Shown: one piece after another, positions 2 through 5,183 of the stretch
Numbering within the stretch: the first letter of the stretch is position 1
Layout of the letters: each line of letters starts with the position of its first letter
Assembly (NCBI GenBank): GCA_003563255.1
Contig: PWSL01000253.1
Span: 1 to 5,183 of the forward strand
Reading direction: 5' to 3'
Length of the DNA stretch: 5,183 nt
Source: Desulfonatronospira sp.
Lineage (GTDB): Bacteria; Desulfobacterota; Desulfovibrionia; Desulfovibrionales; Desulfonatronovibrionaceae
Notes under the pieces: model-generated
What the model saw: only the letters and a program-made list of their open reading frames with translations
What the model was told of the DNA's origin: nothing
Database searches by the model: none
Position numbers and translations under genes: made by a program

Positions 2-52
2 CTTGGGGGGAATGAAGAGAAGAGAGAAGAAGGACTCACGCTAAGGCGCTAA
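2..52 (+). CDS. Possible C-terminal tail of an upstream gene, encoded in the repeat
   Basis: The frame starting at base 2 is open from the window edge to a TAA at 50-52 and ends in the residues NEEKREEGLTLRR. The GxxExxY gene at 123-551 ends in RHEERREERVTLSR, encoded by the next copy of the same repeat and also closed by a TAA in the CGCTAAG motif. The matching tails suggest that a protein-coding gene upstream of the window runs into the repeat and stops in it. That gene could be another GxxExxY copy or an hsdM/hsdR-type gene; only about 16 residues are visible, so this cannot be decided. The open frame may also be chance. Confidence 0.25.
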   Translation, partial: LGGNEEKREEGLTLRR

Positions 53-117
53 GACGCTAAGCTTTTCAGAGCTTTTTCTTTGCGCCGTTGCGCCTTTGCG
101 TGAGACAATTCTTAAAT
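11..117. repeat. Palindromic repeat, copy A, left of the GxxExxY gene
   Basis: A purine-rich lead-in (11-33) is followed by an imperfect inverted repeat: arm 36-61 (TCACGCTAAGGCGCTAAG...) pairs with arm 78-103 at 21 of 26 positions across a 16-nt loop. The right shoulder continues to the TTCTTAAAT motif at 109-117. The whole block recurs after the GxxExxY gene at 511-617, and its right half recurs again at 628-663. It looks like a dispersed palindromic element and could form a stem in RNA or in single-stranded DNA. There is no T-tract directly after the stem, so it is not a classical terminator. Confidence 0.8.
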
Positions 118-122
118 AAACT

Positions 123-551
123 ATGCGTGATCAATCAGAATACATTGAAAAGCTTGCATCCACAGTCATTGACACTGCCTTTCACCTGCACCGTGATCTA
201 GGGCCGGGACTGCTGGAATCCGTATACGAAGCTGTACTGGCCCATGAACTTGGGGCAAGGGGCTTGATGGTGGAACGGCAGAAGCCGGTACCCGTTCATT
301 ATCAAGGCGTTGTGCTTGATGAGGGTTTCCGGCTGGACCTGCTTGTGGAGAAAAGGCTGATCGTTGAACTCAAATCAGTTGAAGAGCTTCATCCTGTCCA
401 TCCAAAACAGGTCCTGACCTATCTGCGGCTCATGGACCTGCCTTTGGGGCTCTTGATCAATTTCGGGGCTCCTTTGTTGAAGCAGGGGCTTAAGCGGGTG
501 GTGAACAGGCATGAGGAGAGAAGAGAAGAAAGGGTCACGCTAAGCCGCTAA
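123..551 (+). CDS. GxxExxY family protein (PDDEXK_3, nuclease-like fold)
   Basis: This 142-residue protein belongs to the GxxExxY family, whose cellular role is not established. The naming motif is seen as G29-L-L-E32-S-V-Y35 in LGPGLLESVYEAVLAHEL. A PD-(D/E)XK-like core follows: D72 in RLDLLVE, then E82 and K84 in IVELKS, and Q96/Y100 in KQVLTYL, a place where this fold often has a conserved Gln. The predicted active-site residues are therefore present, but nuclease activity is inferred only from the fold. The ATG at 123 is the first plausible start and precedes all motifs. No Shine-Dalgarno sequence is visible, because the bases just upstream belong to repeat copy A. The last 13 or so residues (HEERREERVTLSR) are encoded by repeat copy B and are probably not part of the ancestral fold. 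The gene sits between palindromic repeats just before hsdS, which suggests insertion of a cassette into a type I restriction operon. Confidence 0.9.
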   Translation: MRDQSEYIEKLASTVIDTAFHLHRDLGPGLLESVYEAVLAHELGARGLMVERQKPVPVHYQGVVLDEGFRLDLLVEKRLIVELKSVEELHPVHPKQVLTYLRLMDLPLGLLINFGAPLLKQGLKRVVNRHEERREERVTLSR

Positions 552-627: not shown

Positions 628-663
628 GCGCCGTTGCGCCTTTGCGTGAGATAATTCTTAAAT
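628..663. repeat. Third repeat half-copy, nearly identical to 82-117
   Basis: The 36 bases 628-663 match 82-117 at every position except C106 versus T652. They include GCGCCGTTGCGCCTTTGCG and end in TTCTTAAAT. Only the right half of the palindrome is present here, placed in tandem after copy B. Copies A and C thus form near-perfect direct repeats flanking the GxxExxY gene. The first possible ATG of hsdS (662) overlaps the last two bases of this copy. Confidence 0.85.
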
Positions 664-2374
664 GAGACATATGACAACAGACCTTTTATTCAAAAACTTC
701 CATCTCCTGGCAGGTACACCCGACGGAGTAAAGCAACTGCGCCAGCTCATCCTCCAGCTGGCTGTCCAGGGCAGGCTGGTTCCTCAAAATCCTGATGATC
801 CTCCTGCAAGTAGGCTTTTACAACAGATCAAGGCAGAAAAACAGAGGCTGATCAAAGAAGGCAAAATCAAAAAGCAAAAGCCCCTGCCTGAGATTAAGCC
901 GGATGAAGTGCCCTTTGAGCTGCCTAAAGGATGGGAGTGGGCACGTTTAAAATACATCAGCTTTGATTTAGGCCAAAAAAAACCCGACATGGAGTTTACA
1001 TATATAGACGTGGCCTCGATTGAAAATAATTCAGGAAAAGTTTCAAGAGATCTTCAAGTTATACAACCTCAAAACGCACCTTCAAGGGCAAGAAAGATTG
1101 TCCTTAAGAACACGGTTATTTTTTCCACTGTAAGACCTTACCTGCTTAACATAGCAGTTATCGAAGACGATTATTCTCCTGAACCCATAGCCAGTACGGC
1201 CTTTGCCATTCTGCACCCCTGCTCAGGCATCTCCAGCAAGTTCTTGTTTTATTATTTGAGAAGCAATGTCTTTATTGATTACGTAAACTCAAAAATGACT
1301 GGTATAGCATATCCTGCAATTAACGATTCCAATTTCTTTTCAGGACCAATTCCAATTCCGCCCTCCCCTGAACAACACCGAATAGTCGCCAAAGTTGACC
1401 AGCTCATGGCCCTGTGCGATGAACTGGAAGCCAGGCAGGAAAAACAAAAAGTGGTTCATGCCCGGCTGAACAAATCCGCCCTGCATGTCCTGACAAAATC
1501 CAGAACCAGGGACGAACTGTCCTTCAACTGGACCAGGCTTAAGGACAACTTCAGCCTTGTTTTCACCACCCCGGAATCAATCCAGGAACTCCGCTCCTCA
1601 ATCCTCCAGCTGGCTGTCCAGGGCAGACTTGTCCCTCAAAATCCTGATGATTCTCCAGCACAGGCAGTCTTAGAAAAAGCAAAACCTTTTTTTGAAGGCT
1701 TGGTTGTCCAGAAAAAACTGAAAAAGTTACAAACATTGCCAGCCGTAACTGATCAAGATAAACCTTTTACACTCCCGACCGGTTGGGCTTGGAGTCGTTT
1801 GGGAGAACTAATTAAGGTATCATCAGGTGATGGTTTGTCGTCAAAGGATATGATTGAAGGTCATATCCCAGTCTACGGTGGAAATGGCATTGCCGGTTTT
1901 CATAATAAGCACAACATTGAAAAGCAAACATTGGTGATAGGTCGTGTTGGATATTATTGTGGCAGTGTTCATATTACTCCAGACAAAGCATGGGTTACTG
2001 ACAATGCTTTCATTACATATTTTAATGATCACCTTCTAAGCATTTGGTTTCTGAAGTATCTGTTGAATGCTACAGATTTTCGTAAGCACGACAATGCAAC
2101 CGCACAGCCAGTTATTTCTGGCGCAAAAATTTATCCAATAATCATTGGGCTCCCCCCACTCCCTGAACAACACCGCATAGTTTCCAAAGTTGACCAGCTT
2201 ATGGCCCTGTGCGATGAATTGGAAGCCAGCCTGACCAGATCCCAGGCAGACGGACAGAAGCTCATGCAATCGGTTGTGGTGGGTTGTTATCCTCAGCCAG
2301 TGATCAGCCAGAAAATGTTCAATGGTAGTGAAAAAACATACCCGCACAAAATCATATTCCAGGAGTCAATATGA
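662..2374 (+). CDS. hsdS: Type I restriction-modification specificity subunit (S)
   Basis: HsdS selects the DNA target of a type I methylase/restriction complex and binds HsdM. The 570 residues show the standard two-fold layout: a conserved segment (res 25-48, ILQLAVQGRLVPQ), TRD1 (about 88-235, opening LPKGWEWARL), a helical spacer (PEQHRIVAKVDQLMALCDEL, 236-255), the conserved segment again (309-332), TRD2 (371-500, opening LPTGWAWSRL) and the second helical spacer (501-520). Both TRDs look intact. Numbering is from the ATG at 662; the ATG at 671 (MTTDLLFKNF) fits the usual start of the family better, and 662 lies at the edge of a repeat. Neither has a strong ribosome-binding site. The last 30 or so residues after LMQSVVV look unlike a usual HsdS end. 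The stop overlaps the next gene by ATGA. No hsdM or hsdR is in the window; they are presumably upstream, beyond the GxxExxY cassette. Confidence 0.95.
   Translation: MRHMTTDLLFKNFHLLAGTPDGVKQLRQLILQLAVQGRLVPQNPDDPPASRLLQQIKAEKQRLIKEGKIKKQKPLPEIKPDEVPFELPKGWEWARLKYISFDLGQKKPDMEFTYIDVASIENNSGKVSRDLQVIQPQNAPSRARKIVLKNTVIFSTVRPYLLNIAVIEDDYSPEPIASTAFAILHPCSGISSKFLFYYLRSNVFIDYVNSKMTGIAYPAINDSNFFSGPIPIPPSPEQHRIVAKVDQLMALCDELEARQEKQKVVHARLNKSALHVLTKSRTRDELSFNWTRLKDNFSLVFTTPESIQELRSSILQLAVQGRLVPQNPDDSPAQAVLEKAKPFFEGLVVQKKLKKLQTLPAVTDQDKPFTLPTGWAWSRLGELIKVSSGDGLSSKDMIEGHIPVYGGNGIAGFHNKHNIEKQTLVIGRVGYYCGSVHITPDKAWVTDNAFITYFNDHLLSIWFLKYLLNATDFRKHDNATAQPVISGAKIYPIIIGLPPLPEQHRIVSKVDQLMALCDELEASLTRSQADGQKLMQSVVVGCYPQPVISQKMFNGSEKTYPHKIIFQESI
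749..804. repeat. Intragenic direct repeat in hsdS (partner at 1601-1656)
   Basis: The two 56-base segments match at 52 positions and encode ILQLAVQGRLVPQNPDD in both halves of HsdS. They reflect the internal duplication of the subunit, but the DNA identity is high enough for homologous recombination. Exchange between the copies would delete or swap TRD1. Confidence 0.85.
1366..1434. repeat. Intragenic direct repeat in hsdS (partner at 2161-2229)
   Basis: The two 69-base segments match at 64 positions and encode PEQHRIVxKVDQLMALCDEL, the start of each helical spacer after a TRD. With the pair 749-804/1601-1656 they bracket each TRD with near-identical DNA, while the TRDs themselves are unrelated to each other. 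This is the layout expected for exchange of specificity domains. Confidence 0.85.
2361..2365 (+). promoter_or_regulatory. Ribosome-binding site for the AAA ATPase
   Basis: AGGAG lies five bases before the ATG at 2371, inside the last codons of hsdS. Together with the ATGA stop/start overlap it supports translational coupling of the ATPase to HsdS. Confidence 0.75.
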
Positions 2375-3555
2375 TCAACACAATAAATATTGATGGTTTT
2401 AAATCCTTGAGAAATTTTGAGATGGAACTTGGCCTGGTCAATGTTTTGATCGGGGCCAACGGCAGCGGAAAAAGCAATATCCTGGAAGCCATAGGCGTTC
2501 TGTCCGCTGCCGCCTCAGGGCGGGTAGACGATGAATCCCTGATGCGGAGAGGCGTGCGCCCTGGGTTGCCAAGCCTTTATAAATCCTCATTCAAGGCAGA
2601 CCGGACTCCTCCACATATTACCATGGAGGTCAATGCTCCAGAATCTTCATACAGGATTTCGCTTTTAAATCCATTGCAGGACCCCAGGCCTGCCTGGGAA
2701 TTCAAGACCGAGCACCTTGCTTCAAAGACTTCTACTATTGTCAGTCGTGGAGTACGCCGGAAGAACGATTATGATCCGGCCCTTGGCCTGGCCGCTTTAA
2801 AAGCAGTTGAGTTAGACAAACAGGACCCGGCCGGTCGGTTATTGAACACCTTGCAGGACTATGCCATTTATTCCCCGCATACAGCTGCTTTGCGTGGCAT
2901 AGTACCCGACCCTCAGACCAGGGAGCCCGTAGGACTTTCAGGCGGCGGCCTGGCTGCAGCCATGCATGAGTTGCAAGCACTTGCGGTCATTGATGATAGG
3001 GTTGAAGAAGCCCTGGAGGATGTGCTTTCCTGCATGGATTGGGTTGAAGGATTTGACACCAGCCTGAGTGCATCACAGCTGCTGTCTCCGTCCGTGCCCC
3101 GTTCAAAGAGGATTCTGCGTTTTACTGATCGCTACATGATAAAGGAGCGCAACAAGCTCACCGCTTATGACGCCAGTGAGGGATCGCTTTACGCTCTGTT
3201 TGCTGCGGCCCTGACTTTATCTCCTTCTTCCCCGTCTTTTTTGGCCATAGATAACCTGGATCATGCTCTAAACCCCAGAATGGTCAGGGAGTTGACCAGG
3301 ATGTTATGTGAGTGGGTGTTGGAAGCCAACAGACAGCAGATTATTTTCACTGCTCATAACCCGGCAGTGGTGGATGGACTGGATCTTGACAATGAAAACA
3401 TCAGACTTTTTGCAGTGGACAGAAACAGTATGGGACACAGCCTGGTGAGCAGAATTGAAATAACGCGGGAATTGTCTGATCTTGCAGCCAAAAATGACTG
3501 GCCTCTTTCCAGACTGTGGATGATGGGACATATCGGTGGAGTGCCCAATGTCTGA
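2371..3555 (+). CDS. SMC/OLD-type AAA family ATPase (AAA_21-like)
   Basis: This 394-residue ATPase has an ABC/SMC-like head without a long coiled coil. The N-terminus (INTINIDGFKSLRNFEMEL) is the usual first strand of RecF/OLD-type heads. Walker A is G28-ANGSGK-S35, the signature-like motif is ASEGS (268-272) in DASEGSLYALFAAALTL, Walker B is FLAIDN (290-295) followed by the D-loop-like HALNP, and the H-loop-like motif is FTAHNP (326-331). The Walker B Asp (D294) is followed by Asn (N295) where a catalytic Glu is expected. The C-terminus ends LSRLWMMGHIGGVPN. There is no TOPRIM domain in this chain; one is encoded by the next gene, giving a split OLD-like pair. The start is fixed by AGGAG at 2361 and the ATGA overlap with hsdS; the stop overlaps the next gene by 8 bp. 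A defence role as ATP-driven sensor or regulator of the partner is inference. Confidence 0.9.
   Translation: MINTINIDGFKSLRNFEMELGLVNVLIGANGSGKSNILEAIGVLSAAASGRVDDESLMRRGVRPGLPSLYKSSFKADRTPPHITMEVNAPESSYRISLLNPLQDPRPAWEFKTEHLASKTSTIVSRGVRRKNDYDPALGLAALKAVELDKQDPAGRLLNTLQDYAIYSPHTAALRGIVPDPQTREPVGLSGGGLAAAMHELQALAVIDDRVEEALEDVLSCMDWVEGFDTSLSASQLLSPSVPRSKRILRFTDRYMIKERNKLTAYDASEGSLYALFAAALTLSPSSPSFLAIDNLDHALNPRMVRELTRMLCEWVLEANRQQIIFTAHNPAVVDGLDLDNENIRLFAVDRNSMGHSLVSRIEITRELSDLAAKNDWPLSRLWMMGHIGGVPNV
3535..3541 (+). promoter_or_regulatory. Ribosome-binding site that decides the TOPRIM gene start
   Basis: GGTGGAG lies six bases before the ATG at 3548. The alternative GTG start at 3536 falls inside this site and has no site of its own, so ATG 3548 is preferred. 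Confidence 0.65.
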
Positions 3556-4210
3556 GCTCAAAATTGGATTGGTTGTGGAGGGACCCACTGACGCAGTTGT
3601 TTTGCAGGCTGGCCTGGCCGCCTTTCTTGGAACTCCATTTATTGCAACAACCCTTCAGCCTCAAGTGCCTGCGGGCTCACCTGGAACCGGCTGGGGCGGG
3701 GTTTACAGGTGGTGCAGACAAGTGGCTTCTCTTAAGTCGGAGACATTATCTGAAAATCCCATTCTGCGGAATCTGGATGTGATAATTATCCAGATAGATG
3801 CGGACGTTGCAGGAATGAGTTACGCCGATGCCGGAATTCATGAGCCGGTATTAAATGATTTACCTTGTGAGGTGCCCTGTCCACCGGCCTCGGATACGGT
3901 TGATCTACTTTTCAGTGTTGTTCATGGGTGGCTTTCACCGACCATACCCGGAGATAGTGGAGTCATCTGTGTGCCTTCAAAATGCATTGAAGCATGGGTG
4001 GCAGCCGGGCTTTACAGTCAAACAACTCCCGAACTCATGGATGATCTTGAATGTTCTAATGCGATTCTTGCCTATTTTCAAAACAAGCCAGCCAGGAAGC
4101 GTCTTATCCGCAGTAAAAAAGGCAAACCAAAAAAGATAAGAAGCAGATATCTGGAAATATCAGAATCTCTTACAAAAGAATGGGAAAATATTACAAAATA
4201 TTGTCCATAA
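3548..4210 (+). CDS. Small TOPRIM-like protein, partner of the AAA ATPase
   Basis: This 220-residue protein is probably the nuclease or effector partner of the preceding ATPase. A TOPRIM-like pattern is visible: E11 in IGLVVEGPTD and the D84-A-D86 pair in IIIQIDADVAG, the expected metal-binding acidic residues. Other segments look like family motifs: GTGWGGVYRWCRQ (46-58), DLPCEVPCPPASDTVDLL (104-121) and CVPSKCIEAWV (141-151). The C-terminal part is basic (KPARKRLIRSKKGKPKK) and may bind nucleic acid. It is shorter than, and I cannot align it to, the DUF4435 TOPRIM protein (AriB) of PARIS, and it lacks the usual DUF4276 pattern. I chose the ATG at 3548 over the GTG at 3536 because of the GGTGGAG site; the overlap with the ATPase gene is 8 bp. 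The reading frame continues sensibly past the stop (see 4211-4264), so the C-terminus may be shortened. The TOPRIM call is from motifs only. Confidence 0.8.
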   Translation: MSELKIGLVVEGPTDAVVLQAGLAAFLGTPFIATTLQPQVPAGSPGTGWGGVYRWCRQVASLKSETLSENPILRNLDVIIIQIDADVAGMSYADAGIHEPVLNDLPCEVPCPPASDTVDLLFSVVHGWLSPTIPGDSGVICVPSKCIEAWVAAGLYSQTTPELMDDLECSNAILAYFQNKPARKRLIRSKKGKPKKIRSRYLEISESLTKEWENITKYCP

Positions 4211-4264
4211 GCTGGTTTGTTTCAGAAAGCCGTTGAAAACTCAATGGCAAGGCTGAATGTATAA
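4211..4264 (+). other. In-frame extension of the TOPRIM gene beyond its TAA stop
   Basis: After the stop at 4208-4210 the same frame stays open for 17 codons (AGLFQKAVENSMARLNV) and ends at a TAA at 4262-4264. The junction reads C-P-stop-A-G-L-F-Q-K-A. A single C-to-T change of CAA (Gln) to TAA would give this stop, so the protein may have lost an amphipathic C-terminal tail of about 18 residues. A stop-free run this short can also be chance. Confidence 0.35.
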
Positions 4265-4650: not shown

Positions 4651-5183
4651 ATGTTTTCAAGATGGCTGACCATTCCTTCAGACAGCAGCTGTCTGCTCAT
4701 CGGCCCCCGCCGGTCAGGCAAGACAACCCTTCTCAGGGGATTGTTCCCTGATTTCAACTACACCACCCTGGATGACCTGGATTATTTGGACTGGGCTGAA
4801 CGCGATCCAAAAGGTTTTGTCCAGGATCTGGGTAAGTCATGCATAATTGATGAAATTCAGCGCACCCCCAGGCTGACCATTGCGGTCAAGCATGCCATTG
4901 ATCAGAGCGGTGCAAAAATTTTCATGACCGGCTCCAGTTCAATCGGATTGTTGGATGCTGCAGCAGACACCATGGCTGGAAGGATTGAAATTCTGTCTTT
5001 GCCTGCACTTTGCTGGGGGGAGGAACTGGGTAGACCAACCCATAATGTTTTCATTGAAGAACCAAACCATGTTCAGCTCAAGCAGGGGGCAAGAATGCTG
5101 GATCAGGCCGTAACCTTCGGCGGATTTCCGGAAGTGGCTGAACAGAAGAATGAAGAGGGGAAGGCAAAGATACTGATCCGTTA
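4651..5183 (+). CDS. AAA_14/DUF4143-type ATPase, 5' part
   Basis: The frame is open from ATG 4651 to the window end, giving 177 residues without a stop; the rest lies beyond the window. Family motifs appear in order: Walker A G18-PRRSGKT (LLIGPRRSGKTTLL), LDDLDYLDWAERDPKGF (40-56), Walker B IIDEIQ (65-70), a sensor-like FMTGSSS (91-97), AGRIEILSLPAL (109-120) and FGGFPEV (157-162). This is the pattern of the large family of ATPases with an N-terminal AAA_14 domain and a C-terminal DUF4143 domain, usually near 400 residues. Their function is mostly unknown; they are common in accessory regions. A TAA directly upstream in frame (4645-4647) makes 4651 the first possible ATG, although no ribosome-binding site is seen. 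The 386-base gap to the preceding genes suggests a separate transcription unit. Confidence 0.88.
   Translation, partial: MFSRWLTIPSDSSCLLIGPRRSGKTTLLRGLFPDFNYTTLDDLDYLDWAERDPKGFVQDLGKSCIIDEIQRTPRLTIAVKHAIDQSGAKIFMTGSSSIGLLDAAADTMAGRIEILSLPALCWGEELGRPTHNVFIEEPNHVQLKQGARMLDQAVTFGGFPEVAEQKNEEGKAKILIR

Follow-up and report, generated by a model that had tools for sequence, protein, structure and literature searches.

What is a pair of genes for an ATPase and a predicted nuclease doing directly behind the specificity gene of a type I restriction-modification (R-M) system? The question is raised by a 5183-bp stretch of Desulfonatronospira DNA, which we call the window and which is a complete contig (G000:C248) of a 3.5-Mb draft genome in 532 contigs. 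All genes in it lie on the plus strand: a GxxExxY gene, hsdS, the ATPase gene (A), the gene of the TOPRIM-like protein (B) and the start of an AAA_14 gene. Because the window is the whole contig, hsdM and hsdR are outside the view. An earlier note on this DNA had described hsdS, A and B as translationally coupled and had suggested that A and B, fused to hsdS in one operon, might act when restriction is blocked. Our answer, to which we assign a probability of roughly 0.58, is that A and B form a latent defence unit behind hsdS, in which A would sense infection and keep B inactive until B turns on nucleic acid, with DNA as the most likely target. The gene order, the overlaps, the profile match, the conserved residues and the enrichment near type I R-M genes are read directly from the sequence. 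The features of the hsdS-A-B region are:

662..2374, plus strand: hsdS, type I R-M specificity subunit, 570 residues (PADLOC Specificity_I, 486 bits; PF01420 in two stretches)
2361..2365, plus strand: AGGAG, ribosome-binding-like site for A, within hsdS (sequence)
2371..2374, plus strand: ATGA overlap of hsdS and A (open reading frame coordinates)
2371..3555, plus strand: gene A, ATG start, 394 residues, ABC/SMC-head-type ATPase, PDC-M31A (PDLC04570; PF13304)
3535..3541, plus strand: GGTGGAG, ribosome-binding-like site for B, within A (sequence)
3548..3555, plus strand: A/B overlap of 8 bp, ATGTCTGA (open reading frame coordinates)
3548..4210, plus strand: gene B, 220 residues from its ATG, predicted TOPRIM nuclease, PDC-M31B (PDLC04571); stop codon TAA at 4208-4210
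4211..4261, plus strand: in-frame remainder homologous to the last B helix of relatives, untranslated in the window copy (profile match to 4249)

Both proteins match PDC-M31 of PADLOC, and the pair is therefore, by its sequence, a catalogued and uncharacterised candidate phage-defence system: A matches PDC-M31A (PDLC04570) with 569.8 bits (E 8e-172), residues 1-394 lying on positions 1-395 of the 395-position model, and B matches PDC-M31B (PDLC04571) with 232.8 bits (E 1e-69), residues 1-219 lying on model positions 1-216 of 233. The two genes adjoin in the same order as in the candidate system; the window's B differs in that its match stops 17 positions short of the model's end. The name PDC-M31 occurs in no paper of the open-licence PubMed Central literature that we searched. 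According to passages of PMC12988326, the PDCs derive from a 'guilt-by-embedding' approach and most of them lack experimental validation, and passages of PMC13356809 and PMC12255303 cite the 2024 preprint (Payne et al.) behind them. When the earlier note took genes within an R-M operon for a possible defence unit, it followed the same logic by which the PDCs were listed. The note had also held that membership in an already described system would speak against its proposal, and the defence-profile search did place the pair in the catalogued candidate.

The description of the two proteins as an ABC-type ATPase and a TOPRIM-like protein proved correct, for A by its family match and for B as a prediction from fold comparison and conserved residues. 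In the general libraries A is an AAA_21 ABC-type ATPase (PF13304); 16 PHROGs families match it, the best of them of unknown function and the weak ones SbcC-like and similar. Its motifs are, as we take them, Walker A (GANGSGKSN), the signature (ASEGS), Walker B (AIDN) and the switch residue His329. Asn295 sits where ABC ATPases have the catalytic Glu, and the alignment has Asn at this position in all 79 A sequences. The structure of A is predicted with a predicted local distance difference test score (pLDDT) of 89.4. A second ATPase pair is encoded elsewhere in the same genome (L103:499-2459, contig C253); there, an A-related ATPase with Glu-Glu at Walker B overlaps a DUF4276 protein by 13 bp.

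For B, nothing scored above cut-off in Pfam, NCBIfam and PHROGs, where no family was found at all in PHROGs, and a sequence search in the PDB returned chance-level rows only. Its assignment comes from conserved residues and from the predicted fold. TOPRIM nucleases have an acidic E-x3-D motif, a DxD motif and a later Ser/Glu and Lys, and B fits this pattern in its OLD-like form: in an alignment of 90 rows (82 of the 120 homologues listed among 396 found, 7 locus proteins and the window), E11 is conserved in 90, D15 in 89, D84 in 89, D86 in 82, S144 in 83, E148 in 80 and K196 in 90 rows. The structure of a relative of B, P0001, is predicted with a pLDDT of 94.6, and the best-scoring fold rows for B are OLD class 2 TOPRIM domains; Foldseek alone gave no match at E <= 0.001. 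B is thus predicted, from models, to have a TOPRIM fold with OLD-like acidic residues. Four cysteines are also near-invariant (C107 in 87, C111 in 90, C141 in 89 and C169 in 90 of the 90 rows), and our guess is that they bind zinc.

This brings the pair close to the OLD family and to Gabija GajA, in which an ABC-type ATPase is likewise combined with a TOPRIM nuclease. In contrast to Gabija, which has one chain, the window's pair consists of two polypeptides, and A differs from Gabija and OLD in the replacement of the Walker-B Glu by Asn. No UvrD-like GajB is present among the five window proteins scanned, on a contig that ends 973 bp after B. AbiL resembles the pair insofar as A matches AbiLi at 79 bits, whereas B has no AbiLii (RloB) match at E <= 1. 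The comparison with PARIS bears on the substrate of B, since AriB is described in passages of PMC12409363 as a two-metal TOPRIM tRNase that works with a separate ABC ATPase, the same two-gene split as here; A matches the PADLOC AriA model at 80 bits, which we take as general AAA_21 domain likeness. B could accordingly cut RNA (tRNA) like AriB rather than DNA. In PADLOC, however, only PDC-M31B models match B at E <= 1, AriB not being among them, and among solved folds the best scores go to TOPRIM domains of the OLD family, from enzymes that are DNA nucleases (passages of PMC10568477 give both their class 2 assignment and this activity). That AriB is missing among the fold rows shown for B excludes nothing. 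We regard cleavage of RNA as unlikely and DNA as the more probable target.

The window copy of B raises the possibility that the unit is decaying in this particular genome. The in-frame TAA at 4208-4210 is the one stop inside the B profile match (3548-4249), and it leaves B 18 residues shorter than the full-length P0001, to which it is 97% identical. The lost residues make up most of the last helix (220-235) of the P0001 model, which is modelled with confidence and conserved in the alignment (A222 in 85, F225 in 88 of 90 rows). An early stop could thus have inactivated the unit and left the coupling as a relic, a view that is compatible with any of the other readings. Against it, the conserved residues are retained throughout A and in the remainder of B, and an error is possible in a draft of 532 contigs. 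Decay is a real possibility to our minds, if one that we would bet against. The copy is either damaged or shortened, or it is the product of a draft error, and B of this genome, short of its last 18 residues, may be impaired.

Does the arrangement of the genes support a unit of A and B? We fetched 80 genomic loci of relatives (the best 80 of 128 found), 76 of them with a phylum and spread over ten named phyla. In 78 of these, B is immediately preceded by A; the contigs of the other two, L016 and L064, end just upstream of B. The A/B overlap measures 8 bp in 78 of 80 junctions, that of the window included, the exceptions being L066 and L071. The start of B was placed by a script that takes the in-frame start codon before the EGxTD motif nearest to an overlap of 8 bp; the choice appears sound, because the starts so placed are ATG in 76 of 77 cases and M1 and S2 are conserved in at least 90% of the B proteins. 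In the window, the mechanical open reading frame of B opens at GTG 3536, 12 bp upstream of this ATG. Since they lack the 8-bp overlap, L066 and L071 were excluded from the 77 junctions. One contig (L046:282-4421) carries two A-B pairs in tandem, and the second was left out of the codon and junction-alignment counts.

Bases G-13, G-12 and G-10 before the ATG of B are invariant in the 77 aligned junctions. Two codons at the junction are biased (related sequences enter these counts as if they were independent). A purine is the third base of the Gly codon over the ribosome-binding-like site in 66 of 77 junctions, as compared to 41% of the Gly codons elsewhere in A; for Ser2 of B, 75 of 77 junctions have the codon TCT, which makes up a mean of 12.6% of the other Ser codons of B. 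The bias at Ser2 is largely due to the frame of the overlap itself. That of the Gly codon is independent of this frame, and it therefore speaks, at the level of sequence, for a preserved ribosome-binding site and hence for coupled translation of A and B. The earlier note was right about the signs of coupling: AGGAG (2361-2365) lies within hsdS before the ATGA overlap (2371-2374), GGTGGAG (3535-3541) precedes the ATG of B and the 8-bp overlap (3548-3555), and the length of this overlap as well as the codon bias extend the case for A and B beyond the window. The hsdS/A overlap of four bases (ATGA) recurs in 7 of the 80 other loci, which come from two gene orders and two phyla.

The proposed tie to type I R-M systems is likewise non-random. 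Searched with hsd profiles built from Pfam-checked HsdM, HsdS and HsdR seeds inside these loci, which remote families may escape, and counted from 80 bits upwards, 24 of the 80 loci carry type I genes on the same strand as the pair (in 13 of them each flank measures 5 kb or more). The gene order is hsdM-hsdS-A-B-hsdR in 12, hsdR-hsdS-A-B-hsdM in 5 and cut or partial in 7. An hsdS lies upstream of the pair in 23 loci, within 100 bp in 11; in the other 12 the gap exceeds 100 bp and reaches up to 5.2 kb, with other open reading frames or spacers between. For the first 50 of the 80 loci, an hsdS was seen upstream on the same strand within 5.3 kb in 10 of 50 cases as compared to about 0.2% by chance, an estimate based on 213 Methylase_S matches in the approximately 277 Mb of these genomes under the assumption of independence.

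The remaining 56 loci have no hsd gene on the strand of the pair in the fetched stretch; many contigs are short, and 29 of these loci extend for 5 kb or more to either side of the pair. The idea of a pair confined to R-M loci was therefore rejected. Homologues lying mostly outside restriction loci had been named in the earlier note as evidence against its proposal, and this is largely what we found. Among the unlinked loci, L085 carries hsdR-hsdS(-hsdM) on the other strand, beginning some 5.5 kb downstream of the pair, and L046 has an HsdR-like match of 61 bits, below the cut-off. No third partner accompanies the pair in the 56 loci: none of the families among 83 upstream and 95 downstream open reading frames (up to two per side, at least 110 residues, within 5 kb, from simple calls of which some are surely spurious in GC-rich DNA) has more than 4 members. 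On a tree of A, the state changes between linked and unlinked at least 12 times when 57 of 79 rows are considered (25 linked including the window, and 32 unlinked with 4 kb upstream and 2 kb downstream) and 13 times with all rows; this quick tree has no bootstraps and does not distinguish gain from loss, and the open A frame of L062 was cut to its last 400 residues. The many solitary loci and the repeated changes of state imply that the pair stands alone and that entry into or loss from hsd operons has happened repeatedly: judged by its genomic contexts, it is a self-sufficient module repeatedly lodged in hsd operons.

These contexts also bear on the idea that the type I enzyme itself silences A and B and that anti-restriction proteins (Ocr- or Stp-like) release the pair, in the manner of PrrC. 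The pair does occupy the slot of prrC in the order hsdM-hsdS-prrC-hsdR, as given in passages of PMC3014915 and PMC3874165, and the enrichment near hsd genes as well as the four bases (ATGA) that A shares with hsdS in the window and 7 of 80 loci agree with such an arrangement, as do GmrSD- and SLFN-type genes that fill this slot in sister operons. Since 56 of the 80 loci lack hsd genes on the strand of the pair, and 29 of the 56 offer 5 kb or more of sequence to each side, a trigger that requires the R-M complex cannot be general. Moreover, the pair occurs in at least two hsd gene orders, hsdM-hsdS-A-B-hsdR and hsdR-hsdS-A-B-hsdM, which implies no specific contact with one enzyme. No PrrC/RloC family appears among the Pfam, NCBIfam and PADLOC rows for B and for A (for A, the top 25 out of 131 PADLOC rows and the top 25 out of 63 NCBIfam rows). 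We hold this alarm to be improbable. For the role as a backup when restriction is blocked, the contexts exclude a general requirement; for the copies embedded in hsd operons such a role is possible, with PrrC as the precedent in passages of PMC3014915.

How does the pair relate to the operon in which it lies? In a genome of the same genus (G003, contig 27, L120), the order is hsdR-hsdM-GxxExxY-hsdS, with an hsdS that is 84% identical to that of the window over residues 2-340; neither A nor B is present on this contig, which ends 415 bp past hsdS. In a genome of the same order (G078), the arrangement is hsdR-hsdM-hsdS, and the pair is not directly behind hsdS. Taken together, these arrangements suggest that the absent hsdR-hsdM of the window are located beyond the upstream end of the contig and that the pair is an accessory which may or may not follow hsdS. 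In one respect the earlier note has to be revised: the pair is not fused to hsdS but is a two-gene unit of its own, which does not follow directly upon a close relative of this hsdS in the same genus. In the window's genome, N6_Mtase matches lie on contigs C434, C467 and C61, and weakly on C412 and C249, with HSDR_N matches on C434, C467 and C61; the draft contains no clear unassigned copy of hsdM or hsdR for this hsdS, and what the first 100 bp of the window share with other contigs is confined to matches of 27 to 64 bp on two of them.

The exchange of genes at this position can be followed in the genus of another record, L079. Seven of its 148 genomes match the HsdR of L079 at E <= 1e-100, L079's own included; the comparison covers L079 and five others, leaving out G153 with its match in pieces. 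The gap between hsdS and hsdR holds A and B in two of the six (L079 and L116, the latter also with a GmrSD-type gene), two GmrSD-type genes in L115, an SLFN_AlbA/HATPase gene in L113 and L114, and an AAA_21 gene plus an SLFN_AlbA/HATPase gene in L112. By its gene content, this gap is a swappable slot. Second-line defences lodged between hsdS and hsdR are known from PrrC (EcoprrI operon), TgvAB and DarTG2, as passages of PMC3014915, PMC11411939 and PMC12255303 have it; their proteins differ from A and B, and PrrC is held by the R-M enzyme. The pattern of presence and absence makes the pair a further case for the place behind hsdS as a slot for second-line defences.

The occurrence of the pair is patchy (5 of 81 genomes, its own included), and this matters for a reading in which A and B would be a repair or loading pair like RecF and RecR, the TOPRIM protein having no nuclease action and the pair no part in defence. 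RecR contains a TOPRIM domain, and A matches the RecF model with E 1e-11, at 44.6 bits where the cut-off is 172. Patchiness, the recurrence in hsd operons and the conservation of acidic residues and Lys as in TOPRIM nucleases all argue against such a role, as does a copy on the conjugative plasmid pE5_001 (L099:10001-18008), where the pair lies between traI-DsbA and a SAVED/ThiF/Mov34 (CBASS-like) operon; we consider it very improbable. The plasmid pair has no blastn match in E. coli genomes. With A as tblastn query, a single record out of 72,556 from plasmids matched at E <= 1e-40, and a single one, unannotated, out of 50,697 from phages at E <= 1e-20.

How might a defence unit of A and B work? 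Coupled translation would provide A and B in a fixed ratio, and the two would form a complex. Because Asn replaces the catalytic Glu, A would be a nucleotide-gated clamp rather than a motor, binding ATP and hydrolysing it slowly or not at all. Phage infection, by way of nucleotide depletion or a phage protein, would alter the clamp and free B, which would then cut nucleic acid by two-metal TOPRIM chemistry and halt phage growth. The tie to hsdS would consist in shared expression and shared mobility, with the pair as a self-sufficient cargo of hsd operons and a further line of defence against phages that get past restriction. It is tempting to speculate further that PDC-M31 is a hydrolysis-locked OLD variant, in which the Asn ATP clamp holds a cysteine-rich, zinc-bound TOPRIM nuclease at a ratio set by the near-invariant 8-bp junction, that depletion of ATP/dATP by the phage opens the clamp, and that the copies behind hsdS are a fail-safe for restriction; in this detailed form the proposal is tentative, and we think it unlikely to hold in full.

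In the open-licence PubMed Central literature searched, we did not meet the fixed junction, the Asn in place of Glu or the four cysteines. These three regularities (the 8-bp junction, the Walker-B Asn and the cysteines) make the mechanism of PDC-M31 testable. If the Asn locks the ATPase, A would be a natural 'EQ-type' trap that serves as a sensor, with consequences for the understanding of ATP control in defence ATPases of the ABC type such as GajA and PtuA.

The surroundings of hsdS, A and B in the window add some minor observations. Downstream of B, 440 bp contain no recognised gene; the start of an AAA_14 ATPase gene that matches PADLOC PDC-S01 follows at 4651-5183 and is cut by the contig end. 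Upstream lies one further feature:

123..551, plus strand: GxxExxY (PD-(D/E)XK_3) gene, directly upstream of hsdS and flanked by repeats (TIGR04256, E 6.9e-43; PF13366, E 5.7e-41)

The repeats around this gene are of 43 and 69 nucleotides (window positions 9-117 and 508-663), and pieces of 33-37 nucleotides match 15 other contigs of the window's genome. In the same-genus contig L120, the gene between hsdM and hsdS is a GxxExxY homologue that has such repeats as well.

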